DNA of 44,417 nucleotides. Origin: a virus. This document shows, piece by piece, positions 7,679 to 23,415 of the stretch (the stretch's first letter is position 1; the number at the start of each line of letters is the position of its first letter). A program made the translations under genes and the position numbers. The notes under the pieces were generated by a model. The model was not told where the DNA came from, searched no databases, and worked only from the letters and a program-made list of their open reading frames with translations. Where the stretch lies: positions 1 to 44,417 of the IMG/VR virus record IMGVR_UViG_3300042861_000026; one strand, written 5' to 3'.

Positions 7679-10483
7679 TTAACTAATCAGTTTTCCTATA
7701 AACCCGTTATATCCACTACCATATGCAGTATCGCCGGAAGTATTAACATAAATATCAACATAATCGCCTGCCGCCAACGAAAAAATTGCAGATATAGATC
7801 CATTCTGAAAAGCTGTGCTTCCTGATTGTTCTCCGAGAACTAATTGAACACCATTTTTTCTAATACTCCACTGACATCTAGCGGTTGAAGAAACGGTTAA
7901 CATAAAACTATTGAACAAATAATTACCAGCCACAGGAGCAGTAAATCTTCCTGTAGAAGAATCGTAATGGTTACCTATATTGGTAATGACATTATTGAAT
8001 AGGAAAACTGTTGGACCAGTAACGTTACCAGAAGTTCTTGCAGCAAAGAAGGCTGGTTGACTAGGCATTGTAACACGGCCAGAACTATCAATAGATAAAT
8101 GATTCCCACCAGATCCGGCAGCACGTAATGTTAATGGTCCTGTACCTTCGGTTGAAAGTCTTACAGCGTCACCAGAGTCCTCAAGAAATAACTTTCTTGA
8201 TAATCCTTCAAAAAGAGCAAAACCGCCAGAAGCACCTGTGCTGACATGGAATTTGTAAGATGGTGTGGAAGTACCGATACCAATTCTACCAGTATTGGTA
8301 ATACGCATGTTCTCCGTTAGAGAAGAACTGTTTCTGAAAACTAGGTTACCTGCGGCTGCTGTGCCTCTAGCAATATCAAAGTAAAAATCATTGCCGTTAT
8401 GAGCAAGTCCGGTAAATCCGACTGGATTTCTGAAAGCGATACCGCCGTTGGTGGAATCATACACTGTCATTGGATAAGCACTGGTAGCGGTTGCTGTACC
8501 TATTAGGACGTTACCGGTGGCATCAATTCTCATTCTTTCCGTATTGTTCGTGCGGAAAGCCATAGGATGATTTGATACAGTATTCAGAATACTTTCGGAA
8601 GTTCCGTTCAACTGCCAGTTAGCGGTGACAGTACCATTCTCTAGCCTATAAACTGTGTTTGATCTAACATCACCGGCAACGTCTAGAGTGTATCCAGGAT
8701 TGGTTGTGGCAATACCTACTCGACCAGTATTACTAAACGCAATAACGTCGCTAACAACAGAATCCCAAAGTCTTGTTACGTTATTTGATCTGTAAATACC
8801 ACTGACACCTGTTATGCTGGTATTTCTATCAGCAAGGACAAGTATTGATGAGGCACCTCCTCCGAGGGTTAGAGAACCGTTAAACACAACACCAGATGTA
8901 TTAGCAAGAGCAGCATTAGCCTTAGCAAAAGCCGCATTACTTACCACATAGTCTGCATTAGAACTTGTGTAGGCAGCATTGATAACACCGAAGGCACTAT
9001 TGACCGCAGCATATACGGCATTAGTTAGAGTATAGTCGGCGTTAGAACTTGTATAAGCGGCATTAACCGTATCATATGCAGTCTTAATCCATACAATAGC
9101 ATTAGCACCACCTAGTGTTAGATTGCTTGTATTCAAATCCGCAACCAACACAGCATTAACCATGTTATTAGTACCAGGAACGAATGTGTTATTAGCTGGC
9201 TCCTGATCATATCCGCTAAACAGATAGTATTGCTTGTTAGTAGCGTCTCTGATTAGACCTGTATGAACGTTGGCGCTAGTAGCATTACCATAGTTGGCGA
9301 TAAAGCCAATATCCACCAAATCTGTACCAGAGTAATTGTTTCCTGCTAGGTAGATTAGCGAATCACCAATAGATAGAGTATTAGATGAAATGATTGTAGA
9401 ACCACCAAGCAATGACAAGTTACCAGTGATAGACAAATCACCAGTAATAGTTTGTGTAGTCGCAACTAGCTTTAGAAATGTATTGTTGGCATATGTGTTA
9501 GATGAAGCACCAACAACTACCGTGTAAGCATTACCAGCATTAGCCATTGCACCAGAGTATGCATTAGCAGATATGGCTAGATTGTTAGCATTACCGTAAG
9601 CAGCATTAGCCACAGCAAAGGCAGCATTGGTAACAACATAGTCGGCATTAGAGGATGTATAGGCTGCATTGATTACTGCAAATGCTGAGTTAACCGCAGC
9701 ATAGATGGTGTTAGAGAATGTATATTCAGCGTTAGCGGCAGCGAAGGCAGCATTGGCAATAGTTCCTGCGCCATTTGCCATAGCACCTGCATAGTTGTTA
9801 GCAGATGTAGCGTTATTTGCCATATTAGTAGAGAGAACAAATGAAACATTAGTATATCCAGCATAGGCAAAATCATTTGCTGCGTTTGCCATGACGCCTG
9901 CATAGTTGTTAGCACCAATTCCTGTATTGTATGCTAGAACGTTAGCTGAGTTAGCCTTAGCAAAAGCAGCATTAGCGGTATTAAAAGCAGGAGTTACTTG
10001 AGGTGCTACGTTATTGGCAGCAGCAAAAGCGGCAGCAGCATTGGTAGCAACACCATTTGCAAAACTATAGGCAGCATTAGCCTGTGTGTAAGCAGCATTA
10101 GCGGTATTATAACTTGGTGCTACCTGAGGAGCGACATTGTTGGCGGAATCAAAAGCAGCATTAGCAACACCGAAAGCAGCATTGATTGTCTGAAAGGATG
10201 CAGCAACGTCAGAGAAGCCACCAGATGGTGATGTTTCAACCCACTGTGTGGAATCACCATCGTTGTAAAAGATAAACATGGTACCAAGGTCTTGGTGCCA
10301 CCATAGATCACCAGCTACCGCACCAGGAGGTGCACTAGCAGAAAGATAAACTGAACCAGTAGGAGTATTGTTAGCTGTATAACTCCACTTGGTGGTCGCA
10401 GCATCATAAACATATCGGTTACCAGAAGCGGTGTCATAGTATATCTGTCCATCAACTGGTGATGCTGGGAAATTAAGTGCCAT
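7679..10483 (-). CDS. Tail fibre / adhesin with heptad stalk and C1q-like tip
   Basis: 934-residue fibre paralogous to the one at 3560-7360. The N-terminus ALNFPASPVDGQIYYDTASG is followed by a motif (DLWWHQDLGTMFIFYNDGD, then SQWVETSPSGG) also found in the 336-residue fibre at 15059-16069. Residues about 95-320 are Asn/Ala heptads with inserted NVAPQVAP and SANNYAGAMAN units. Residues about 350-467 are the shared cassette (LIYLAGNNYSGTDLVDIGF to LGGANAIVWIK). Three GIGT-type beta repeats follow (RVGIATTNPGYTLDVAG, VLIGTATATSAYP, RIGIGTSTPSYKFHVS). The last about 140 residues form a C1q-like head, with RFTAPVAGNYLFNSF and the ending YNGFIGKLIS. AAAGGA precedes the ATG, and GATAAATA lies 37 bases upstream. 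Probably a receptor-binding fibre carried beside its relative. Confidence 0.88.
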   Translation of the reverse strand: MALNFPASPVDGQIYYDTASGNRYVYDAATTKWSYTANNTPTGSVYLSASAPPGAVAGDLWWHQDLGTMFIFYNDGDSTQWVETSPSGGFSDVAASFQTINAAFGVANAAFDSANNVAPQVAPSYNTANAAYTQANAAYSFANGVATNAAAAFAAANNVAPQVTPAFNTANAAFAKANSANVLAYNTGIGANNYAGVMANAANDFAYAGYTNVSFVLSTNMANNATSANNYAGAMANGAGTIANAAFAAANAEYTFSNTIYAAVNSAFAVINAAYTSSNADYVVTNAAFAVANAAYGNANNLAISANAYSGAMANAGNAYTVVVGASSNTYANNTFLKLVATTQTITGDLSITGNLSLLGGSTIISSNTLSIGDSLIYLAGNNYSGTDLVDIGFIANYGNATSANVHTGLIRDATNKQYYLFSGYDQEPANNTFVPGTNNMVNAVLVADLNTSNLTLGGANAIVWIKTAYDTVNAAYTSSNADYTLTNAVYAAVNSAFGVINAAYTSSNADYVVSNAAFAKANAALANTSGVVFNGSLTLGGGASSILVLADRNTSITGVSGIYRSNNVTRLWDSVVSDVIAFSNTGRVGIATTNPGYTLDVAGDVRSNTVYRLENGTVTANWQLNGTSESILNTVSNHPMAFRTNNTERMRIDATGNVLIGTATATSAYPMTVYDSTNGGIAFRNPVGFTGLAHNGNDFYFDIARGTAAAGNLVFRNSSSLTENMRITNTGRIGIGTSTPSYKFHVSTGASGGFALFEGLSRKLFLEDSGDAVRLSTEGTGPLTLRAAGSGGNHLSIDSSGRVTMPSQPAFFAARTSGNVTGPTVFLFNNVITNIGNHYDSSTGRFTAPVAGNYLFNSFMLTVSSTARCQWSIRKNGVQLVLGEQSGSTAFQNGSISAIFSLAAGDYVDIYVNTSGDTAYGSGYNGFIGKLIS
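9080..9385 (-). repeat. Dispersed fibre cassette, copy 2
   Basis: Same module as copy 1. By eye the DNA matches copy 3 (13940-14240) closely, with most differences at third codon positions, for example the GLIRDATNKQYYLFSGYDQE segment against GLVRDATDKQYYLFNGYDQE. Confidence 0.75.
9480..10200 (-). repeat. NAAY heptad repeat block (21-bp period)
   Basis: Long run of Asn-led heptads broken by NVAPQVAP and SANNYAGAMAN-type inserts; a shorter block follows the cassette at 8890-9075. Confidence 0.78.
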
Positions 10484-10503
10484 TGCTATCCTTTAGCGGT
10501 GGA

Positions 10504-10812
10504 TTATTGTGGTTTTGGGTATTTATCTTTCACGGCTAAACAGGCATCGATATAGGCTTGGATCTGTGCTTGATCACCCTTCACAACACCATCTAAGTAT
10601 TCTTTGAAGTCTGGATACTCTAGCGCACGATCTCTCTGATACTGTGTGTCTAGCCAAACTTGATGTAGACGGTCACATTCTACTTCTAGTTCTTCTAGAG
10701 TTGGCTTTTGAATATTTGTTGATAGCCAGTTAAGACCCTCATATGTATCACCATTTAGCGTCCACTGTGCGTTTGGATATAATGACATAATTGCTTTTGA
10801 TAAATCTCTCAT
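10504..10812 (-). CDS. Small fibre-associated protein, XkdW-like pattern
   Basis: 102 residues. It opens MRDLSKAIMSLYPNAQWTLN and then has KPTLEELEVECDRL and a C-terminal half of the common phage pattern 'YxxxRxxEYPxxxEYLDxxxKGD' (YQRDRALEYPDFKEYLDGVV). This pattern is found in small proteins next to tail-fibre genes in many phages, some annotated XkdW-like or as fibre-assembly helpers; I infer such a role. Good ribosome site (AGAGGA) before the ATG. Its last codons (DKYPKPQ) contain the GATAAATA motif that probably serves the next fibre gene. Confidence 0.78.
   Translation of the reverse strand: MRDLSKAIMSLYPNAQWTLNGDTYEGLNWLSTNIQKPTLEELEVECDRLHQVWLDTQYQRDRALEYPDFKEYLDGVVKGDQAQIQAYIDACLAVKDKYPKPQ
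10520..10527 (-). promoter_or_regulatory. T4-type late promoter candidate
   Basis: GATAAATA (seven of eight) on the minus strand within the last codons of the 102-residue gene, 37 bases before the ATG of the 934-residue fibre. Confidence 0.5.
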
Positions 10813-10827
10813 AATTTCCTCTTATGA

Positions 10828-11373
10828 CTATTGTGCTATTTCTGTTAAAACAATTGTGGATGATGATACTGAATTGTAACTCTGCGTACCATCCGAATAG
10901 TTTTGAGTTCTGTTCAAACCAAAAAAAGTACCTTCAGGTCTAACTTGAACTTGATATGTCAATGTAGATGTTGTTGCTGGACTGTCCAGATAATGAATTA
11001 TACATTGACCACAGTGGTTTGCGTCACGACCTTGGTTGGATTCTGCCGCATGTACCTGTAAACGGCTGCCTATAGCAGAACCAGCATTAAACAGACTACT
11101 ATTTCTCAATACACGAAATGCAAGAGCATTACCTCCCGAAACTCTACTCAAATTTACATGAACTTGAATTTTACTCGTGGCAAACTTCGGAGTAATAGCG
11201 GCAGACATGCCTGTTATATCTGTCCAAGTTTCGGCGGTTGATGATGAAAACGTATCAGTCTTAATACCTTGAACAATCTGAATAACGTGTCCAGGTATAT
11301 ACACCGTGCTGCCAGCAGTCTTGGCGTAAATAAAATCGATGTTTGCTTGATCTACTGTTAGAATACCTGGCAT
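10828..11373 (-). CDS. Adhesin-like small virion protein, paralogue 3 of 3
   Basis: 181 residues, third of three tandem paralogues. The shared core is TVYIPGHVIQIVQGIKTDTF, then TWTDITGMSAAITPKFATSKI, an arginine-containing strand (FRVLRNSSLFNAGSAIGSRL), LDSPATTSTLTYQVQV and the ending SSSTIVLTEIAQ. It is beta-rich with no membrane segment or signal peptide. Proteins of this kind are found near the fibres of cyanophages and other marine phages and are presumed structural or receptor-contacting; this is inference. The N-terminus (PGILTVDQANIDFIYAKTAG) differs from the other two copies. Only a weak AGGG precedes the ATG. Confidence 0.78.
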   Translation of the reverse strand: MPGILTVDQANIDFIYAKTAGSTVYIPGHVIQIVQGIKTDTFSSSTAETWTDITGMSAAITPKFATSKIQVHVNLSRVSGGNALAFRVLRNSSLFNAGSAIGSRLQVHAAESNQGRDANHCGQCIIHYLDSPATTSTLTYQVQVRPEGTFFGLNRTQNYSDGTQSYNSVSSSTIVLTEIAQ

Positions 11374-11382
11374 TATAATACC

Positions 11383-11889
11383 CTATTGTGCTATTTCCAT
11401 GACACATATTGTGCTGGATGTTTGGAATCCCGAATCAAGACCACGACCATTTACTAGAAAAACGCCGCCTTGGCCTTGTAATTTGTATGTTAATGTTGAT
11501 GTGGTTGCTGGACTATCTAAGAAAACTACTGACCTAGTATGAACAGCGAAGTAGTCCTGTCCGGCGACTTGACCGAAGAAACCACTATTACCATTACCGA
11601 TAGCAGTTGAGCCTCTTACCAATCTAACATAAGCGTCACCACCGTTAGCATCTTTTGAACAATTAGTATGAGCGGTTACAAGTATTCTACTTGATGTCGA
11701 TGTTGGAGTTATCGTTACAGATAAACCAGTAATGTCTGTATAAGTACCGCTATTCATAGTAAAAATATCAGTCTTGATTGCTGTTCGGACTTGAATAACA
11801 TGGCCAGGAGCATATAAACTAGTACCTGTAGGAACAGCAATAGTCGTTCCAGTTCTAGCATTGAGATTATCAACTCGTAAGGTACTCAT
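11383..11889 (-). CDS. Adhesin-like small virion protein, paralogue 2 of 3
   Basis: 168 residues from the ATG at 11889 (MSTLRVDNLNARTGTTIAVP). A start five codons upstream is open but has no ribosome site; the chosen ATG has GGGAG eight bases ahead and overlaps the upstream stop as ATGA, like the gene before it. The core repeats the paralogue pattern: YAPGHVIQVRTAIKTDIF, TYTDITGLSVTITPTSTSSRI, LDSPATTSTLTYKLQ and a C-terminal STICVMEIAQ. Most divergence from its neighbours lies in the middle (VRLVRGSTAIGNGNSGFFGQ), the likely exposed part. Function inferred only from location and similarity. Confidence 0.8.
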   Translation of the reverse strand: MSTLRVDNLNARTGTTIAVPTGTSLYAPGHVIQVRTAIKTDIFTMNSGTYTDITGLSVTITPTSTSSRILVTAHTNCSKDANGGDAYVRLVRGSTAIGNGNSGFFGQVAGQDYFAVHTRSVVFLDSPATTSTLTYKLQGQGGVFLVNGRGLDSGFQTSSTICVMEIAQ

Positions 11890-12434
11890 ACACCAATCTC
11901 CCATAGAGTGATAGATGAAGCCATTCTACAGTCATTACCATCAGTATCTCTAGTTGTTCTATTTACGTATCTAGCACCAGTATTCTCACCATGAGATTGT
12001 ATCTTATAGGTAATAGTAGATGTAGTCGCTGGCGAATCGATAAAAGTACCAACATTTACACCAAGAAAGGCAGCATCACCTCCAGATGCTTGTCCGAAAC
12101 CTAGAGTTCTACTGCCCGATGCATCTCCGATATAAATTGGTGTATCACCTCTAAGCAATCTCACTCTAGCAGCAACGACACCAGGATGACCTGAACCACC
12201 ATTTACATGAACTAATACAAATACTTTACTAGACGCTGAGGTTGGTGTAATGCTACAAGTCAAACCAGTAATATCTTGCCAAGTTGATGCTGTGGTTGAT
12301 ACCCATGTATCTGTCTTGACCGTTTGAACAACTTGAACAATTCCTCCAGGTGCATAAAACTTATGTCCAGAAGGAACCGTAATTCTATTACTTGGCGAAA
12401 CGCCTCGAAGATTTTGAACTGTTAAGGTACTCAT
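11886..12434 (-). CDS. Adhesin-like small virion protein, paralogue 1 of 3
   Basis: 182 residues, first in transcription order of the three paralogues. It starts MSTLTVQNLRGVSPSNRITV, with an ATG that overlaps the stop codon of the 866-residue fibre as ATGA, so translation is probably coupled. The core is FYAPGGIVQVVQTVKTDTW, TWQDITGLTCSITPTSASSK, VRLLRGDTPIYIGDASGSR and FIDSPATTSTITYKIQSHG, ending SSITLWEIGV. The MSTL N-terminus is shared with paralogue 2, as in other marine phage proteins whose first residues resemble a fibre attachment segment. Likely a virion protein associated with the fibre tips. Confidence 0.8.
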   Translation of the reverse strand: MSTLTVQNLRGVSPSNRITVPSGHKFYAPGGIVQVVQTVKTDTWVSTTASTWQDITGLTCSITPTSASSKVFVLVHVNGGSGHPGVVAARVRLLRGDTPIYIGDASGSRTLGFGQASGGDAAFLGVNVGTFIDSPATTSTITYKIQSHGENTGARYVNRTTRDTDGNDCRMASSITLWEIGV

Positions 12435-16723: not shown

Positions 16724-18160
16724 TTAGAAACCGCCTCCGTCTAGGATACCAAAGAATGGTACGCCTGATGCGCTGGCTTGTAGCACTTGTCCTTCTGTAC
16801 CAGCACCAGTAACCTGTAGAGGACCAGTTGCGTTACCGAATAGGACACCATTGGTGGTGAAGGTTGTGTTACCAGTACCACCCCATGACACGCCGATTGT
16901 ATTAGCAGTCCATGTGCCGATTGTTACGTTACCTAGACCAGTGATATTGCGGTAGTTACCAACAACTAGGTTCTCAGGAACAGTACCAGTGTTCATGTAA
17001 GAAGCGTTAGCAGCATGTTGATCAGCAACGTTAGCTGTATTGAATGCTGCGTTGGCTACAGTGTAACCAGCATTGATTGATGTATAAGCTGCATTAACGA
17101 CAACGTATGCAGCGTTTGATGATGTATATGCAGCATTTGTAACTGTGTAGTTCATATTTGCCATTGTATAGGCAGCATTAACTACATCATATGCAGCATT
17201 AGTTGTAAGATAATTCTGATTAGCCATGACATATGCGGCATTAGTTACCGTATAGTTCATGTTTGCCATTGTATAGGCAGCGTTTGTGGTATCGAAGTTT
17301 GTCTTGATCCAAACGTATGCGTTAGCGCCGTTAAGTCTTAGATTGCCAGTGATGATATCGGCATTAAGAACGGCTAGCTGGAAGCCGTTGGCTGTAGGAT
17401 CAATGTGGTTATTATCTGGTTCTTGATTATAGCCTTGGAATAGATAGTATTCTTTAGTAGAATGCTCACGATAAAGACCAGTGTGTAGATTGGCTGAACC
17501 GTTATTATAGTTGGCAACAAAACCGATATCAACAATATCAGAAGTATAGTTGTTACCTGCCAAGTAGATCATCGAATCAGAAACTCTTAGAACTTCTGCA
17601 TCTACTACGAAAGTGTTGCCAGAAAGTGTAAGGTCGCCGACGATATTAACATTACCAGTGATTGTACCACCAGCAGATGCGAACTTAGTATTAGCTAGAT
17701 CAAATGCAGCGTTAGCAACCGTATAGCCAGCATTAGAGGAGGTGTATGCGGCATTAGTCACAACGTAGTTAGCATTTGCGGAAGTATAGGCTGCATTGAG
17801 AACTGTAAATGCAGAGTTTAACTTATCGAACGAAGCGTTAGAAACAACATAGTTGGCATTAGAACTTGTATAAGCAGCATTAAGAACTGCATATGCCGCA
17901 TTAGTTGTGGTGTAATTCATGTTTGCCATAGTGTAGGCAGCATTGACTACACCATAAGCAGAGTTGATTACATCAAAGGCTGCATTAGACTGGTCTAGGA
18001 AATACTTACCACCAATCGTGATAACGTCCAGACCATTAGCAGAACCGATGAAAAGTTTGCCAGACTGATAGGAATAGGCTAATTCCGCTTGCTGGAGCGA
18101 ACCGCCAGGTGGCGTTCCTGTGGTACTAGAACGCTTGATTTGAATGATGGTATTTGACAT
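16724..18160 (-). CDS. Tail fibre with heptad stalk and shared cassette
   Basis: 478-residue fibre. The N-terminus SNTIIQIKRSSTTGTPPGGS followed by LQQAELAYSYQSGKLFIG is the cyanophage fibre start. Residues about 57-155 and 292-390 are very regular Asn/Ala heptads (NAAYTMA, NMNYTTT, NANYVVS). The shared cassette lies at about 192-290 (MIYLAGNNYTSDIVDIGF, then REHSTKEYYLFQGYNQEPDN). The C-terminus is short: WGGTGNTTFTTNGVLFGNAT and QVLQASASGVPFFGILDGGGF. No C1q head is present. It follows the 78-residue protein with a three-base gap. The previous gene's last codons (GGA GGA GAT) lie 13 bases before this ATG, where they could act as a distant ribosome site. Confidence 0.85.
   Translation of the reverse strand: MSNTIIQIKRSSTTGTPPGGSLQQAELAYSYQSGKLFIGSANGLDVITIGGKYFLDQSNAAFDVINSAYGVVNAAYTMANMNYTTTNAAYAVLNAAYTSSNANYVVSNASFDKLNSAFTVLNAAYTSANANYVVTNAAYTSSNAGYTVANAAFDLANTKFASAGGTITGNVNIVGDLTLSGNTFVVDAEVLRVSDSMIYLAGNNYTSDIVDIGFVANYNNGSANLHTGLYREHSTKEYYLFQGYNQEPDNNHIDPTANGFQLAVLNADIITGNLRLNGANAYVWIKTNFDTTNAAYTMANMNYTVTNAAYVMANQNYLTTNAAYDVVNAAYTMANMNYTVTNAAYTSSNAAYVVVNAAYTSINAGYTVANAAFNTANVADQHAANASYMNTGTVPENLVVGNYRNITGLGNVTIGTWTANTIGVSWGGTGNTTFTTNGVLFGNATGPLQVTGAGTEGQVLQASASGVPFFGILDGGGF
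17300..17590 (-). repeat. Dispersed fibre cassette, copy 4
   Basis: Module from SMIYLAGNNYTSDIVDIGF to LNGANAYVWIK, the most diverged of the four and closest in wording to copy 1 (GLYREH, KEYYLFQGY, NNHI). Confidence 0.7.
17690..18000 (-). repeat. NAAY heptad repeat block (21-bp period)
   Basis: Regular Asn-led heptads, alternating NAAYTxA with NxNYVVx; a matching block lies downstream at 16990-17295. Confidence 0.8.
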
Positions 18161-18405: not shown

Positions 18406-18750
18406 TTATCCTGTGATGGATGGTGTTACATGGACAACGCCTTCAATCAATCTTGAATGAGTATTAGTCAAAGCACTGACAGTCAAAATATCAAAGAAAT
18501 ACGTTCCAACTTTTAGGTTGGCTGTATTAGCTGCTGACATTGAAATGAAAATTGTACCGTTGCTATTTGATGTATCGGTGGTACATACGAAAGATGCAGA
18601 TGCATTAGGAGATACTAGAGACCTCTTGAGGCTTCCTCTAATAGTATATCCGTTTAAGTCTTGAGGCAAGTTTGTGTCATCATCGGTGATATCGATGGTA
18701 GTATAGAAGTCTGCACCTTTGTCTATGTATAGTTCTACATACTCGGACAT
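18406..18750 (-). CDS. Small beta-rich virion protein (Ig-like/BppU-like pattern)
   Basis: 114 residues, beta-rich. It opens EYVELYIDKGADFYTTIDIT and has DLNGYTIRGSLKR, AANTANLKVGTYFFDILTV and a C-terminal RLIEGVVHVTPSITG. The pattern 'KGADF...LTGYT...LKxGxYxxDI...EGxVxVTP' is frequent in T4-like cyanophages and resembles the N-terminal beta domain of BppU-type baseplate proteins, so a structural role is likely but not shown. AGGGA nine bases before the ATG. A late-promoter candidate (18802-18809) and a strong stem-loop lie in its leader, so it probably heads a transcript covering the following fibre genes. Confidence 0.78.
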   Translation of the reverse strand: MSEYVELYIDKGADFYTTIDITDDDTNLPQDLNGYTIRGSLKRSLVSPNASASFVCTTDTSNSNGTIFISMSAANTANLKVGTYFFDILTVSALTNTHSRLIEGVVHVTPSITG

Positions 18751-18801: not shown

Positions 18802-18809
18802 TATTTATC
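18802..18809 (-). promoter_or_regulatory. T4-type late promoter candidate
   Basis: GATAAATA (seven of eight) on the minus strand, overlapping the TAA stop of the oxygenase gene (18805-18807) and 52 bases before the ATG at 18750. A weaker TCTAAATA lies at 18767-18774. Confidence 0.55.
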
Positions 18810-19422
18810 TAAACTTGGGTCCCTCTACCCAGATAACCAAAGACTTTCTGATTCCAGATGTGACAGGTGCTACCTTGTGAGGAATGAAAGAAGGAAACGA
18901 TACAATGGTTCCTCGTTTCATAGCAATCGTAATAGCATCTTCTTCTTTACCAGTATTGATCAAAAACTCACCACCAGTAAAATCTTCGCCAGGTGTATTC
19001 AGCAACATAACTAAACTTAACTTTCGTGTGTCACTGTTCTTAGTGTTACCCAGTTGTTGATCATATAGTAGGTCAGTGTGCCACTCAAACTTTCCGTCTT
19101 TATCATATGTCGTGTATTGTATTGACTCATATCCGTGTAGATCGAATCCATAATAGTTGTTATTAACTCTATTGATCACATGGTTAAACTTATTGTAAAA
19201 CCATTCTGTAGTATCATCTTTACCGATGAAGGCTACTTTAGAAATTCTAACCTGATTGACATACTCATCGGTAACAATCTTGGCATCATTCAATTCTAGA
19301 GTTTCACAATAGTTTGCTATATTGCCTATCTCCGAATCATCAAACACACCATCAATCCAAAAGTTAGAAGGTGTCATCCTTCTTCTCATAAACAAATCAT
19401 TTGACACTTCACCATAACGCAT
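18805..19422 (-). CDS. 2-oxoglutarate/Fe(II)-dependent oxygenase (prolyl-4-hydroxylase-like)
   Basis: 205 residues. The double-stranded beta-helix core shows the full iron and cosubstrate set: H115 and D117 in FEWHTDLLYD, H182 in SFIPHKVAPVTSG, and R192 in GIRKSLVIWVEG for 2-oxoglutarate. YESIQYTTYDKDGKFEWHTD, LSLVMLLNTPGEDFTGGEF and GTIVSFPSFIPHKV follow the P4H/PKHD pattern. Such enzymes hydroxylate protein side chains (Pro, Lys) or small molecules using O2 and 2-oxoglutarate, releasing CO2 and succinate. No signal peptide, so cytoplasmic. T4-like cyanophages often carry homologues among fibre genes; their substrate is not known to me. Here it lies one gene from a Gly-Pro-rich collagen/polyglycine-like adhesin, a candidate substrate. 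AAGGA eight bases before the ATG fixes the start. Confidence 0.9.
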   Translation of the reverse strand: MRYGEVSNDLFMRRRMTPSNFWIDGVFDDSEIGNIANYCETLELNDAKIVTDEYVNQVRISKVAFIGKDDTTEWFYNKFNHVINRVNNNYYGFDLHGYESIQYTTYDKDGKFEWHTDLLYDQQLGNTKNSDTRKLSLVMLLNTPGEDFTGGEFLINTGKEEDAITIAMKRGTIVSFPSFIPHKVAPVTSGIRKSLVIWVEGPKFR

Positions 19423-19433
19423 TGTTTTAATCC

Positions 19434-19952
19434 TTAAAGAGGAATAGTTGTTCCTGTATGAATTGCATGAATAACTAGATTGGCAAAAGCTGACGAAATC
19501 TTAGGATCACTATTAGCGTAATCGAAGATGCGAACAGTTTCGGTTATATCAGCATTAACATTTGCTACTGCCTGTTGGCTTGATTGTGCCTGTAAGGCTT
19601 CTACATCTTCTAATGTAAATGTTCCTGTATCACCAACATGTTCTTTTAGTTCTGCAAGTTTAGTATCAACATTAACATCAACAATACTCTCTTGCAACTT
19701 AAGCCAGTCAATAGGTGCTCTTAGAATAATGTCTTTTACAATTTGTTCATATGATGGTGCTGGTGTTTCGTAAATGCTCATGAACACATCTGTTCTGGTT
19801 GATAGTGGATAACCATCGGCATTTACTCTTACAGTACCATCTTCATTGAAGGATGTGGCCAAATCCATCTCTGTTACTTTGTCTGTCCAATAGCGAACAA
19901 GAATGCCATGCTCTGACGAGTCTGCTTTAATTATTCTGTATCCTAGATTCAT
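19434..19952 (-). CDS. Uncharacterised phage protein between the polyglycine adhesin and the oxygenase
   Basis: 172 residues, not recognised. The N-terminal third is beta-rich (NLGYRIIKADSSEHGILVRY, then WTDKVTEMDLATSF); the rest is mostly helical (YEQIVKDIILRAPIDWLKL, FTLEDVEALQAQSSQQAVAN). No membrane segment, signal peptide or catalytic motif. It follows the adhesin by 15 bases, with AGGGA eleven bases ahead of the ATG, and is followed by the oxygenase gene, so the three may be made together. It could be an adhesin chaperone, like the small proteins after other fibres here, but this is only position-based. Confidence 0.7.
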   Translation of the reverse strand: MNLGYRIIKADSSEHGILVRYWTDKVTEMDLATSFNEDGTVRVNADGYPLSTRTDVFMSIYETPAPSYEQIVKDIILRAPIDWLKLQESIVDVNVDTKLAELKEHVGDTGTFTLEDVEALQAQSSQQAVANVNADITETVRIFDYANSDPKISSAFANLVIHAIHTGTTIPL

Positions 19953-19967
19953 TTCTTATTGTTCCCT

Positions 19968-21143
19968 TTAAGATACTGGCCCGTTTCTTGTGCCTTGATT
20001 GATATATCTGATGTTTGAATTGCCTGTGATAGCATTACCTTGTGAGCCAGATGCACCAGCTGAACCTGTGGATCCTTGTGCGCCGCCTGGTCCTGTTGGA
20101 CCTGTAGAACCTGTAGGTCCTGTAGCACCTGCACCACCTCCGGCTGCACCAGCATGACCGCTGTGAGAACCGCCACCATGTCCTGCATGTCCGTGTCCTC
20201 CGCCGCCACCAAAGCCACCACCAGAACCACCTGTACCACCTCTAACATGACTGTGGTTGTTGTTTCCACCGTAATCGGCATGACCGCCGCCGCCGCCGGC
20301 GCCGCCGTTATTTGCACCGTGGCCGCCACCTGGACCACCACCGCCTGCACCATGGCCGCCTGTACCTGCACCACCACCTCCACCGCCTCCACCGGCAGTA
20401 ATATGACCACCGTGATGACCTACGGCGTAATAAACATAAACGTGATGACTACCGTAGCCGTGTGCAGCACCGCCGCCGCCTCCGCCTCCACCACCACCAG
20501 AACCACCAGGTCCTCCTGAACCGCCTGGTCCTCCAGATCCTCCTGGACCACCTGGTCCACCAGGGCCTCCTGACCCACCAGAACCACCAGTAATTGTGTT
20601 ATTGTTGTTTAGAATGAGTGCTGTTCCAGTTGCAGTATCGGCTTGAAATGATATGCCGCCTGTACCACCAGTTCCTCCAGTACCACCAGGTCCGCCTGTA
20701 CCACCTGTTCCTCCAGAACCACCAGTTCCGCCTGTACCACCAGCACCTCCGCCACCTCCATGGCCTGCACCAGATGTTGAGCCACCAGAAGCATGAGCAC
20801 CACCGCCACCATGACCACCATGTCCTGATGAACCAGTTGAGCCTGTAGAGCCTGTAGTACCCGTTGAACCCGTTGTACCAGTTGAGCCTGTGCTGCCGGC
20901 TGTTCCTGTTGAGCCAGTAATCGTTGCATTGTTTTCGATATAGAGCAATGAACCACCAGTCCATGACGAACTAGTTTTGAATGCTGGTGTAGAAGGATTT
21001 GACGAACCGATATTAGCATTAACGAAACAGAAAACATTAAGAGGGTAAGTTGGATTACCTGCCTGTGTATATAGATCAACATTGTTCGTTGCTGAACTAA
21101 TGTTGATGATCTTAGTTGGTCTTAATATCGGAAATACAAACAT
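19968..21143 (-). CDS. Histidine-rich polyglycine / collagen-like tail adhesin (gp38-type distal tip)
   Basis: 391 residues. The N-terminal 75 residues (INISSATNNVDLYTQAGNPT, then GSLLYIENNATITG) match a domain that precedes glycine-rich tips in many phage tail proteins. From about 76 on it is glycine-rich: Gly-x-y triplets (STGSTGTTGSTG), GGTGGTGGSGG and GGPGGPGGPGG runs typical of polyglycine-II helix bundles, a repeat of the entry motif (LILNNNNTITGGSGG, about 177-190), then four His-rich stretches (GHGGHGGGG, GSHHVYVYYAVGHHGGH, NNNHSHVR, GHGHAGHGGGSHSGH). A collagen-like run (GPTGSTGPTGPGG) and the familiar end SNIRYINQGTRNGPVS follow. T-even gp38 adhesins use polyglycine-II lattices with variable loops for receptor binding; I infer a similar role. 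The ATG has only a weak ribosome site. The oxygenase lies one gene downstream. Confidence 0.82.
   Translation of the reverse strand: MFVFPILRPTKIINISSATNNVDLYTQAGNPTYPLNVFCFVNANIGSSNPSTPAFKTSSSWTGGSLLYIENNATITGSTGTAGSTGSTGTTGSTGTTGSTGSTGSSGHGGHGGGGAHASGGSTSGAGHGGGGGAGGTGGTGGSGGTGGTGGPGGTGGTGGTGGISFQADTATGTALILNNNNTITGGSGGSGGPGGPGGPGGSGGPGGSGGPGGSGGGGGGGGGGAAHGYGSHHVYVYYAVGHHGGHITAGGGGGGGGAGTGGHGAGGGGPGGGHGANNGGAGGGGGHADYGGNNNHSHVRGGTGGSGGGFGGGGGHGHAGHGGGSHSGHAGAAGGGAGATGPTGSTGPTGPGGAQGSTGSAGASGSQGNAITGNSNIRYINQGTRNGPVS
20030..20920 (-). repeat. GC-rich low-complexity region encoding Gly-Gly-x triplets
   Basis: Nine-base units encoding GGT, GGS, GGP and GGH triplets. It is visibly more GC-rich than its surroundings and keeps several other reading frames open for long stretches. 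Prone to slippage or recombination. Confidence 0.8.
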
Positions 21144-21156
21144 TCAAGCAACTCGC

Positions 21157-23415
21157 TTATCTAACGTCTGGTAGGAATGAACCGTATAGATTTGTGCCAT
21201 CACATACGAATGAGAACAAGTCACGACGATTTGCAGTCGTTGTCAGGATTGGTGCGACACCGGCTGGCCATTTGAATACAGCATTCCATGTTAGTGTTCT
21301 GCTGCCAGTACCATCTTGTATCACATGTAGTATATATGTACCAACTCTGAGGTTAGTTGGTGCTGCAATTGTTCTATTTCCACCAAGTGTAACATATGCA
21401 ACCTGTCCAACTGAAACGTCCCAATTGATTGTGGCACCATCAGTTAGTGTCTGATTTCTAATGTTAGCATTAACTGTAACCGTACCTGTGAATGTAGGGC
21501 TAGCAATTGATGGTGATGATAGAGGTGCATAAGTGGCAGCGGCAAATGCATTTGCTGATGCGCCTACTTGCTGTGCGTATCCGTTACCAGATGCACCGAT
21601 AGATGTGGCTACAGATAGTGCATAAGCATTTCCACTAGTTGCCATTGCAGTAGCATAGTTATTGGCAGAGGTTGTGGATGTATTAGTATATGCTCTTGCG
21701 GTTACGAGATTTGTGGCAACGGTGGTGTTTGTGTATCCGTTGGCAGCATTAGCCATGGCACCCGCATAGTTATTAGCAGATGTACCAACTAGATTTGAGT
21801 ATGCATTATCTGATGCACCAACTTGAACTGTATATCCATTAGCACCAGCAGAAACACCGTTAGCTTTAGCAAATGCAGCGGTTGTGTTTTGAACTACCGA
21901 TTCAATATCAGAGTTAGATGCAATTCTTCTATAGTTAGTTCCGTCGTTTGTAAATTCCCAAACGTCAGTTGCTTCATCCCATAGTAGTGCTACGTTAGTT
22001 GATGAACCACGATTGATTTCAATACCAGCATCTTGTGATGGTGCCGTACCTATTGGTAGATCAGCATTTAGTGTGATGATATTATCACCAACATTTAGTT
22101 GCTGTGTATTGGCATAAGTTGTGATGCCAGAGATCGTTAGGTTACCAGTAACTACTAGATCACCACTAACAGTGTCACCAGCTTTTCTTACATACGTTGC
22201 AATTGAGAATGTATTTACTGCGTTGGCGACAACACCAGCTTGGTTTGCGGCAGCGAAGCCAGCATTAGCAGTACCATATGCAGTATTGGTAACAACATAG
22301 TTAGCATTCGCAGAGGTGTATGCAGCATTCAATACCACAAAGGCTGCTGATAGTCGAACATTATCAGTGTTGGCTTGTGTATAGACTGAATTAGTAACAC
22401 CAAAAGCTGTATTCAAAACACCATAGATGCTGTTTGCTCTACCGAAAGATGCGTTACCTACAGTGAATGATGCGTTAATTAGGTTATAGTTATTCTGATA
22501 ATCGGCATAAGCATTAGCAGCATTTGATCCCAATGTCATTGCTAGGCTGTATGCGTCATTTGCCTTTGTAAAGCCTGCGTTGGCTGTAACATATGCGGAA
22601 TTAGTTACAGTATAGGCAGATGCAACGTTAATGTTAATGTTGTTTGCAAAGTCATAGATGCCGTTAGCAAAAGTATATACAGAATTGACACGTCCGAAGC
22701 CTGAATTGGCAACGGTGAATGCACTATTCGATACAACATAGTTGGCATTACCAGAGACAAAAGCCGCAGACAGACGAACGTTGTCTGTATTGGCCTGAGT
22801 GAAGGCGGCATTAAGAACAACATAAGCTGCACTTAGTCTAACATTGTCTGTGTTTGCTTGTGTGAATGCCGCATTGAGAACAGTAAATGCAGAATTGGTA
22901 ACAACATAGTTAGCGTTTGCAGAAGTATAAGCAGCGTTTAATACCGTATAAGCGGCATTAGATACAACATAGTTGGCATTCGAAGAAGTATAAGCAGAGT
23001 TTAGAACCACATATGCAGCAGACAATCTAACATTGTCGGTATTTGACTGGGTGAATGCTGAGTTTAGCACAACATATGCGGCTGATAGTCGAACGTTATC
23101 TGTATTTGACTGGGTGAATGCTGAATTAGTGACTACATAGTTGGCATTAGCTGAGGTATAAGCTGCATTTAATACGTTGTATGCCTGTGTAAGTCTAACG
23201 TTATCTGTGTTTGACTGTGTAAAGGCTGCATTGGTTACTACATATGCTGCGGATAGTCTAACATTGTCGGTGTTTGATTGGACATAAACAGAATTGGTTG
23301 TCTGAAACACCAAGTTCATCTTCTCATGCTGTTCATTAGCATATAGAATGATCTGGTTTGTTTTGACTCTCCACTGATCAAATGTGTCAGTAAGGTTTAC
23401 GTTTGCTAATCCCAT
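21157..23415 (-). CDS. Tail fibre with the longest heptad stalk and cyanophage-type distal domain
   Basis: 752-residue fibre. The N-terminus (NVNLTDTFDQWRVKTNQIIL, then ANEQHEKMNLVFQTTNSVY) is the characteristic attachment segment of cyanophage fibres. Residues about 40-405 are Asn/Ala heptads, many containing TDNVRLSAAYVV. Then comes GDLVVTGNLTISGITTYANT and the domain NVGDNIITLNADLPIGT with AGIEINRGSSTNVALLWDEA and WEFTNDGTNYRRI, known from cyanophage structural proteins. More SANNYAGAMAN-type repeats follow. The C-terminal about 95 residues form a beta domain (WDVSVGQVAYVTLGGNRTI, YILHVIQDGTGSRTLTWN, FSFVCDGTNLYGSF), a common phage tail module. It directly follows the 67-residue gene, with little ribosome site. 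A perfect TATAAATA lies 139 bases upstream inside that gene. Confidence 0.87.
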   Translation of the reverse strand: MGLANVNLTDTFDQWRVKTNQIILYANEQHEKMNLVFQTTNSVYVQSNTDNVRLSAAYVVTNAAFTQSNTDNVRLTQAYNVLNAAYTSANANYVVTNSAFTQSNTDNVRLSAAYVVLNSAFTQSNTDNVRLSAAYVVLNSAYTSSNANYVVSNAAYTVLNAAYTSANANYVVTNSAFTVLNAAFTQANTDNVRLSAAYVVLNAAFTQANTDNVRLSAAFVSGNANYVVSNSAFTVANSGFGRVNSVYTFANGIYDFANNININVASAYTVTNSAYVTANAGFTKANDAYSLAMTLGSNAANAYADYQNNYNLINASFTVGNASFGRANSIYGVLNTAFGVTNSVYTQANTDNVRLSAAFVVLNAAYTSANANYVVTNTAYGTANAGFAAANQAGVVANAVNTFSIATYVRKAGDTVSGDLVVTGNLTISGITTYANTQQLNVGDNIITLNADLPIGTAPSQDAGIEINRGSSTNVALLWDEATDVWEFTNDGTNYRRIASNSDIESVVQNTTAAFAKANGVSAGANGYTVQVGASDNAYSNLVGTSANNYAGAMANAANGYTNTTVATNLVTARAYTNTSTTSANNYATAMATSGNAYALSVATSIGASGNGYAQQVGASANAFAAATYAPLSSPSIASPTFTGTVTVNANIRNQTLTDGATINWDVSVGQVAYVTLGGNRTIAAPTNLRVGTYILHVIQDGTGSRTLTWNAVFKWPAGVAPILTTTANRRDLFSFVCDGTNLYGSFLPDVR
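22200..23320 (-). repeat. NAAY heptad repeat block (21-bp period), longest in window
   Basis: Over 1 kb of imperfect 21-bp tandem repeats, many carrying a TDNVRLSAAYVVLN unit that recurs with few changes. Confidence 0.8.

Follow-up and report, generated by a model that had tools for sequence, protein, structure and literature searches.

Viral hydroxyproline has been attributed to the prolyl 4-hydroxylase (P4H) of the Chlorella virus PBCV-1 (Eriksson 1999, as cited in PMC9301287), and collagen hydroxylation has been described in mimivirus (PMC8968730). Work from 2012 on collagen-like proteins of prophages held bacteria and viruses to be without the required prolyl hydroxylases. Among phage adhesins, gp38 of S16 and PP01 exemplifies polyglycine-II lattices bearing receptor loops (PMC6851490, PMC12892980). 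Few "auxiliary" genes are as common in marine and freshwater phages as those for 2-oxoglutarate (2OG)-Fe(II) oxygenases, and papers from 2022-2026 have linked them to DNA repair, nitrogen or iron, or have described their use as cryptic (PMC9301287, PMC13184970, PMC12774648). Metagenomic studies called the use of viral prolyl hydroxylases "cryptic" (PMC9301287) or took the genes as PiuC-like iron genes (PMC13184970), and with Phold the family phrog_61 was found to resemble EGLN3, no substrate being named (PMC12774648). The literature we searched, outside which many subscription journals lie, held no paper tying a phage oxygenase to an adhesin and no case of phage hydroxylation. Here we analyzed a 44.4-kb virus record from IMG/VR (IMGVR_UViG_3300042861_000026, positions 1 to 44,417; this whole stretch is called the window), in which a 2OG-Fe(II) oxygenase is encoded in a row of tail genes. 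We conclude that this gene probably encodes a phage peptidyl-prolyl hydroxylase acting mainly on the Gly-rich tail adhesin, the gene for which lies two genes upstream.

Linkage of the oxygenase to a Gly-rich tail protein

The three genes on which the proposal centers are the following:

18805..19422, minus strand: 2OG-Fe(II) oxygenase, prolyl-hydroxylase-like, 205 amino acids (PF13640, phrog_61)
19434..19952, minus strand: 172-amino-acid conserved partner of the adhesin (the "mid" gene), from conservation in relatives
19968..21143, minus strand: Gly-rich putative adhesin, 391 amino acids, the proposed substrate

The initial annotation had placed a single gene, for a 172-residue protein, between the oxygenase and a Gly-Pro-rich protein, and this was borne out (19434-19952). 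The intergenic gaps are 15 nt between adhesin and mid, 11 nt between mid and oxygenase, and about 54 nt between the oxygenase and the next gene.

Among 2.9 million viral contigs scanned, 47 relatives of the oxygenase came up, and later scans used the adhesin N-terminus, the mid protein and the oxygenase as queries. Loci and contigs of relatives compared with the window are given L-numbers (e.g. L168, L227, L382). In the window's clade (42-57% identity), loci with upstream sequence have adhesin, mid and oxygenase in this order on the same strand, with 369-591 bp between adhesin and oxygenase; their adhesins range from 391 to 1145 amino acids and contain 8 to 67 Pro-Gly steps. In a tree of 97 oxygenases the window's protein fell in a supported clade of 24 rows (support 95). 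The mid gene adjoins the oxygenase in 21 of these 24, that is, in all those with enough upstream sequence; the remaining three comprise two loci truncated at contig ends and a tandem copy. The initial annotation had proposed checking whether the genes stay together in related genomes, and the order adhesin-mid-oxygenase is indeed kept in every clade member that could be assessed.

In a second, neighboring oxygenase clade the enzyme gene lies further downstream, at a distance of 1-5 genes, in most cases on the opposite strand and often beside a PF13759 oxygenase; further layouts are adhesin-oxygenase-adhesin and a convergent one directly after the mid gene. The linkage to the adhesin has therefore been remade. 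Where both genes occur on a long contig (11 contigs, 99-172 kb), adhesin and oxygenase lie 0.4-8.8 kb apart. In L382:6009-8356 (+), adhesin and mid are followed by a cupin-like gene and then, two genes past mid, by an oxygenase of the cyanophage S-SM1 lineage, an apparent independent recruitment of a different oxygenase lineage to the same locus. The L382 adhesin is again Pro-Gly-rich, with 9 Pro-Gly in 241 residues, and the tree position of L382 is unsure.

The convergent layout carries other genes as well. A PF13759 2OG oxygenase lies next to the proline-type oxygenase at L218:4866-5549 (-) and L200:5861-6544 (-), and is still present at L227:3454-4137 (-), where the proline-type enzyme is gone. 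A gene of the fatty-acid-hydroxylase family (PF04116 in L218), thus a further gene of oxygenase type at an adhesin locus, follows mid at L218:2078-2533 (+) and likewise in L121, L227 and L332.

Pro-Gly content and the presence of the enzyme

The window's adhesin has the following parts:

20919..21143, minus strand: conserved N-terminal domain (residues 1-75, approximately), identity among relatives about 53-70%
20016..20915, minus strand: Gly-rich region, about residues 77-376, with Gly-x-y, GGx/GGPGG and polyglycine runs and containing the Pro-Gly steps

Its 391 residues include 152 Gly (39%) and 17 Pro, with 11 Gly-Pro and 8 Pro-Gly steps. The initial annotation had pointed to many Pro-Gly steps, and the eight are there, although the number is unremarkable for this protein, about 6.6 being expected from composition (17 x 152/391). 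Because the count is so near this expectation, a single genome proves little, and we dropped the window's Pro-Gly count alone as evidence. The longest Gly-x-y runs reach 12-14 triplets, long Gly-Gly-x runs are also present, and the end of the protein is conserved (...GNSNIRYIN...). The profile resembles collagens by composition, and a triple helix is putative. The name adhesin, taken over from the initial annotation, holds as far as it rests on the tail-fibre and baseplate surroundings and on resemblance to polyglycine-II adhesins; no Pfam match, to collagen or otherwise, was found.

Comparison among relatives was more informative. Adhesin-mid pairs were classed by the presence of an oxygenase anywhere on the contig (PF13640 check), and one pair was kept per 85% mid-gene cluster. 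In the first set (29 with and 12 without oxygenase) the median number of Pro-Gly per 100 residues was 5.1 vs. 1.1, and a larger set (40 vs. 21) gave p = 5e-8 and an area under the curve (AUC) of 0.93. For the final set of 60 pairs, from which unassessable contig ends were removed and to which L382 was added, the medians were 5.2 in the 41 pairs with and 1.1 in the 19 pairs without oxygenase (Mann-Whitney p = 7e-8, AUC 0.94). Phylogenetic regression on this set, using a tree of the N-terminal domain and mid protein with the Gly region left out, gave a slope of +2.45 (p = 0.0015; p = 0.0006 and 0.0004 in sensitivity sets). Among the amino acids compared, only Pro was much higher in adhesins with oxygenase. 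Gly, Ser, Thr, Asn, Asp and His did not differ significantly between the two groups, and Ala, Ile, Leu and Lys were slightly lower with the enzyme. GC bias was rejected as a cause of the Pro enrichment, since it is the contigs with oxygenase that have the lower GC.

In some relatives the enzyme is missing from an otherwise conserved place. The window and the L007 locus share the order 263-75-fibre-adhesin-mid-oxygenase-112 (approximate sizes in amino acids), and L168, L169-L174, L176 and L193, on contigs of up to 81 kb, have the same locus without the oxygenase between mid and the 112-amino-acid gene. At 20 Gly-region columns occupied by Pro in oxygenase-bearing adhesins, the oxygenase-less adhesins of this L168 group have Pro in 11 of 73 cells, the replacements including Ala (19), Thr (11) and Asp (11), so that GGPGGPGG becomes GGDGGDGG or GGTGG. 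In the same comparison, Pro of the N-terminal domain was retained in 20 of 24 cases, and Ser/Thr columns were still Ser/Thr in 49 of 74. In L227, a relative of L218 and L121, the oxygenase is absent between conserved neighbors and the companion PF13759 oxygenase is retained; its adhesin has 3 Pro-Gly vs. 27 in L218 and 12 in L121.

The initial annotation had cast the 172-amino-acid mid protein as a possible helper of the enzyme. We rejected this, since the mid gene goes with the Gly-rich protein in mapped pairs whether the oxygenase is present or not. The mid protein is likely an assembly partner of the adhesin; a structure search with it gave no PDB match and only uncharacterized proteins of uncultured phages.

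Active site, proposed mechanism and competing explanations

The oxygenase matches PF13640 with 57.3 bits (cut-off 27) and has the features of the 2OG-Fe(II) superfamily, namely the HxD...H iron triad, the 2OG-binding Arg and the double-stranded beta-helix. The initial annotation had described it as complete with H115, D117, H182 and R192, correctly as to both coordinates and residues. Positions of the relevant codons, with conservation among 107 homologues, are:

19078..19080, minus strand: H115, iron ligand, invariant
19072..19074, minus strand: D117, iron ligand, invariant
18877..18879, minus strand: H182, iron ligand, 106/107
18847..18849, minus strand: R192, 2-oxoglutarate-binding arginine, 107/107
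19024..19026, minus strand: R133, counterpart of the Arg that binds the substrate proline in prolyl hydroxylases (PHD2 Arg322), 107/107
19087..19089, minus strand: F112, where P4Hs have a tyrosine (PHD2 Tyr310), Tyr in 100/107

In all P4Hs and prolyl 3-hydroxylases an Arg at the active-site opening binds the carbonyl of the substrate proline through a hydrogen bond (Arg322 in PHD2, Arg161 in CrP4H), and P4Hs carry a Tyr besides (PMC4396695). R133 aligns to an Arg in the prolyl 4-hydroxylase PDB 6iuq and to Thr in PiuC, its equivalence to the substrate-binding Arg being drawn from alignment and not from a complex. Because R133 is invariant and the Tyr, three residues before the HxD His, is found in nearly all homologues, the phage family can be read from its sequences as prolyl-hydroxylase-type, with a caveat on the rate or position of hydroxylation in the window's member. 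The candidate "PiuC iron gene" was dropped, the PiuC edge of Thr-Asp and Phe being replaced in the phage family by an invariant Arg-Lys at the substrate edge and mostly Tyr. An AlphaFold2 model (predicted local distance difference test, pLDDT, 78; predicted template modeling score, pTM, 0.80) came closest in Foldseek to PHD2, the Trichoplax and Dictyostelium PHDs, and Pseudomonas P4H/PPHD (TM 0.67-0.69), and also matched the EF-Tu hydroxylase 4iw3. In sequence comparison, PiuC/PKHD hydroxylases (PiuC: E = 1e-4 with a single sequence and 1e-8 with a profile) are the closest proteins of solved structure, followed by 6iuq. Bacterial homologues were found on one contig of a metagenome-assembled genome only. 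In L027, L028 and L029 at 10001-11300 (+), the oxygenase occurs as a tandem duplicate beside the adhesin, the second copy having Cys at the P4H tyrosine position.

The idea in the initial annotation that the phage oxygenase hydroxylates its own adhesin thus came through three tests that it could have failed, i.e. linkage, Pro-Gly depletion where the enzyme is absent, and active-site features of prolyl hydroxylases. Several observations weigh against it. The proposal comes from sequence comparison and a predicted fold, and the fold matches in PDB are dominated by many PHD2 entries and are supportive only. In the enzyme of the window, as in strains of its phage, the P4H Tyr is replaced by Phe. 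The initial annotation had named as refuting the regular occurrence of oxygenase homologues far from any Gly-x-y protein, and this applies in part, since in a related sister clade the oxygenase lies between gp47 and gp46 with no such adhesin beside it. Large contigs of these phages carry 3-7 PF13640 oxygenases, and a different one of them could act. Presence of the oxygenase changes only 4-6 independent times on the tree, and about 2.8 independent pairs run in the expected direction with (almost) none opposite, too few for significance. Individual loci also deviate: L255/L332 have the oxygenase yet 2 Pro-Gly in a split adhesin, L286 has 7 Pro-Gly without oxygenase, and L249 has 18 without it, on a contig that stops before the site of the gene in relatives.

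Other explanations were weighed as well. Hydroxylation of another residue of the adhesin (Asn, Asp, His or Lys) or of another virion protein encoded at the locus (the Asn-rich fibre repeats or mid), with the proline pattern as a side effect, seems rather unlikely to us. Many 2OG oxygenases act on Asn, Asp or Lys, and the locus is rich in Asn-rich repetitive fibres, yet among the amino acids compared only Pro shows a strong difference, with none for Asn, Asp or His and slightly less Lys where the enzyme is present. The mid protein is retained without the enzyme, and the active-site Arg is of the prolyl-hydroxylase type. It is unlikely, too, that the enzyme serves a host substrate (e.g. EF-Tu, as with Pseudomonas PPHD) or PiuC-like iron/2OG metabolism and merely hitchhikes beside the adhesin in a hypervariable tail locus: its linkage to one adhesin family has been re-formed in several layouts, Pro-Gly content tracks it, and PiuC has Thr-Asp for the invariant Arg-Lys. 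Such a role would agree with PiuC/PKHD hydroxylases as nearest solved sequences, the fold match to 4iw3, the sister enzymes in the gp46-gp47 module, and the earlier reading of viral 2OG oxygenases as PiuC-like iron genes (PMC13184970).

That the lineage of a Pro-rich adhesin subtype simply happens to carry the oxygenase, through shared ancestry, host or structure type and with no enzymatic link, we consider very unlikely. The few state changes on the tree, with one deep enzyme-less clade making up about half of the negatives, are what this would predict, but the phylogenetic regression is still significant in all three sets, and absences within oxygenase-bearing groups (the L168 group and L227) shift likewise, in the L168 group at aligned sites. 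Prolyl hydroxylation of the adhesin is the best explanation because linkage, Pro-Gly covariation, in-place absences, and a fold and Arg of the prolyl-hydroxylase type all fit it.

Under adhesin prolyl hydroxylation, the enzyme, encoded in the tail-gene row, would probably be made late together with the tail genes, and would use host 2-oxoglutarate, oxygen and iron to hydroxylate Pro, at C4 or C3, where it is followed by Gly (X-Pro-Gly and Gly-Pro-Gly). The reaction would take place in the cytoplasm ahead of assembly, while the Gly-rich chain is still without its fold, because folded polyglycine-II lattices or triple helices, to judge from known P4H behavior, should be poor substrates. The 172-amino-acid protein would work with the adhesin in assembly and not with the enzyme. 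With hydroxyproline, the polyproline/polyglycine-II strands, or collagen-like arms, that carry receptor-binding loops might become stiffer or more hydrated, since it would add hydrogen bonding and ring-pucker stability to such strands; Asp and Thr replacements in enzyme-less phages would fit a need for polar side chains there. For the wider hypothesis the evidence seems to us evenly balanced: that bacteriophages have a post-translational modification dedicated to their receptor-binding tail tips, in which a prolyl hydroxylase of the phage and a polyglycine-II/collagen-like adhesin coevolve to make a hydroxyproline polyglycine lattice not known from cells, and that phages losing the enzyme recoded the sites as Asp, Thr or Ala. 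The covariation points to a specific substrate for one large oxygenase group and makes the question testable. If the proposal is true, phages chemically modify the part that contacts the host, which bears on host range, particle stability, the oxygen dependence of infection, and protein materials.

Neighboring genes and comparison with known systems

Nearly all genes of the window are on the minus strand, and they include baseplate wedge, hub and neck proteins and a large tail-fibre cluster, as in a T4-like phage; no iron-uptake genes are among the neighbors in the window. The minus-strand order is a 752-amino-acid repetitive fibre, the 391-amino-acid Gly-rich protein, the 172-amino-acid mid protein, the 205-amino-acid oxygenase and a 114-amino-acid LtfC-like protein, the counterpart of which comes straight after the mid gene in oxygenase-less relatives. 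The flanking genes are:

21157..23415, minus strand: repetitive tail-fibre protein, 752 amino acids, upstream of the adhesin
18406..18750, minus strand: 114-amino-acid LtfC-like protein (L-shaped tail fibre assembly)

Tail-fibre proteins built from many NAAYTSANANYVV-type repeats are encoded at 16724-18160 and 21157-23415. Three tandem paralogues (173-182 amino acids) at 10831-12434 match the C-terminal part of the tail-fibre family phrog_6942 and are possibly alternative fibre tips.

The consensus adhesin N-terminal domain and the consensus mid protein had no match in 50,697 phage records, and therefore no close isolate was found. Twelve isolates were drawn by the S-CAM8-type oxygenase or an S-SM1 neighbor protein, and in 11 of them a 2OG oxygenase shares a 10-13 kb stretch with a protein very rich in Gly (local Gly at least 0.48); in S-SM2 the nearby protein is weaker and only partially Gly-rich. 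Seven isolates drawn by the window's enzyme are without such pairing (S-PM2, Syn30, P-SSM4, P-SSM7, S-SCSM1, ACG-2014a, CRP-810). The pairings in isolates are leads, not evidence for the window's clade. 2OG oxygenase clusters lie beside Gly-rich tail-region proteins in S-SM1 (L236), S-SSM5 (L384), P-RSM4 (L385), Sf-CH11 (L386) and S-CAM8 (L242). The annotations of these five cyanophages include "leprecan" (S-SM1 carries a gene so annotated), carbamoyltransferase or tryptophan-halogenase genes, perhaps a wider tail-modification island.

The cyanophage phrog_61 2OG oxygenases (T4-GC 412) are of the same broad family as the window's enzyme and often lie in the tail-fibre region near Gly-rich proteins (S-SSM5, P-RSM4, S-CAM8, S-SM1), but they fall outside its clade, are mostly below 40% identical, accompany other Gly-rich proteins, and have never had a substrate named. 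The window's adhesin shares Gly-rich motifs, variable segments and a T4-like tail-fibre locus with the gp38 polyglycine-II sandwich of S16, PP01 and T2 (PMC6851490, PMC12892980). It differs from gp38 in its N-terminal domain, Gly-x-y arms, Pro-Gly steps and the mid gene behind it, and we could not place it in the gp38 family, finding no Pfam match and no gp38 among the PDB matches. PiuC/PKHD hydroxylases are the best sequence match to the enzyme among solved structures; they depart from the phage family in having Thr-Asp for Arg-Lys, Phe for Tyr before HxD, and iron-uptake instead of tail-gene surroundings. With PHD2/EGLN and Pseudomonas PPHD the family shares the fold, HxD...H, the 2OG Arg, the Arg322 equivalent and mostly the Tyr310 equivalent, whereas identity is about 18-20% and the proposed substrate is a structural protein with repeats instead of one regulatory proline. 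In PBCV-1 and mimivirus, too, a virus enzyme acts on viral proteins of collagen type, there on proline or lysine. Those are viruses of eukaryotes; here the virus is a bacteriophage, the enzyme is PHD/PKHD-like and not collagen-P4H-like, and the proposed substrate is a polyglycine-rich tail adhesin.

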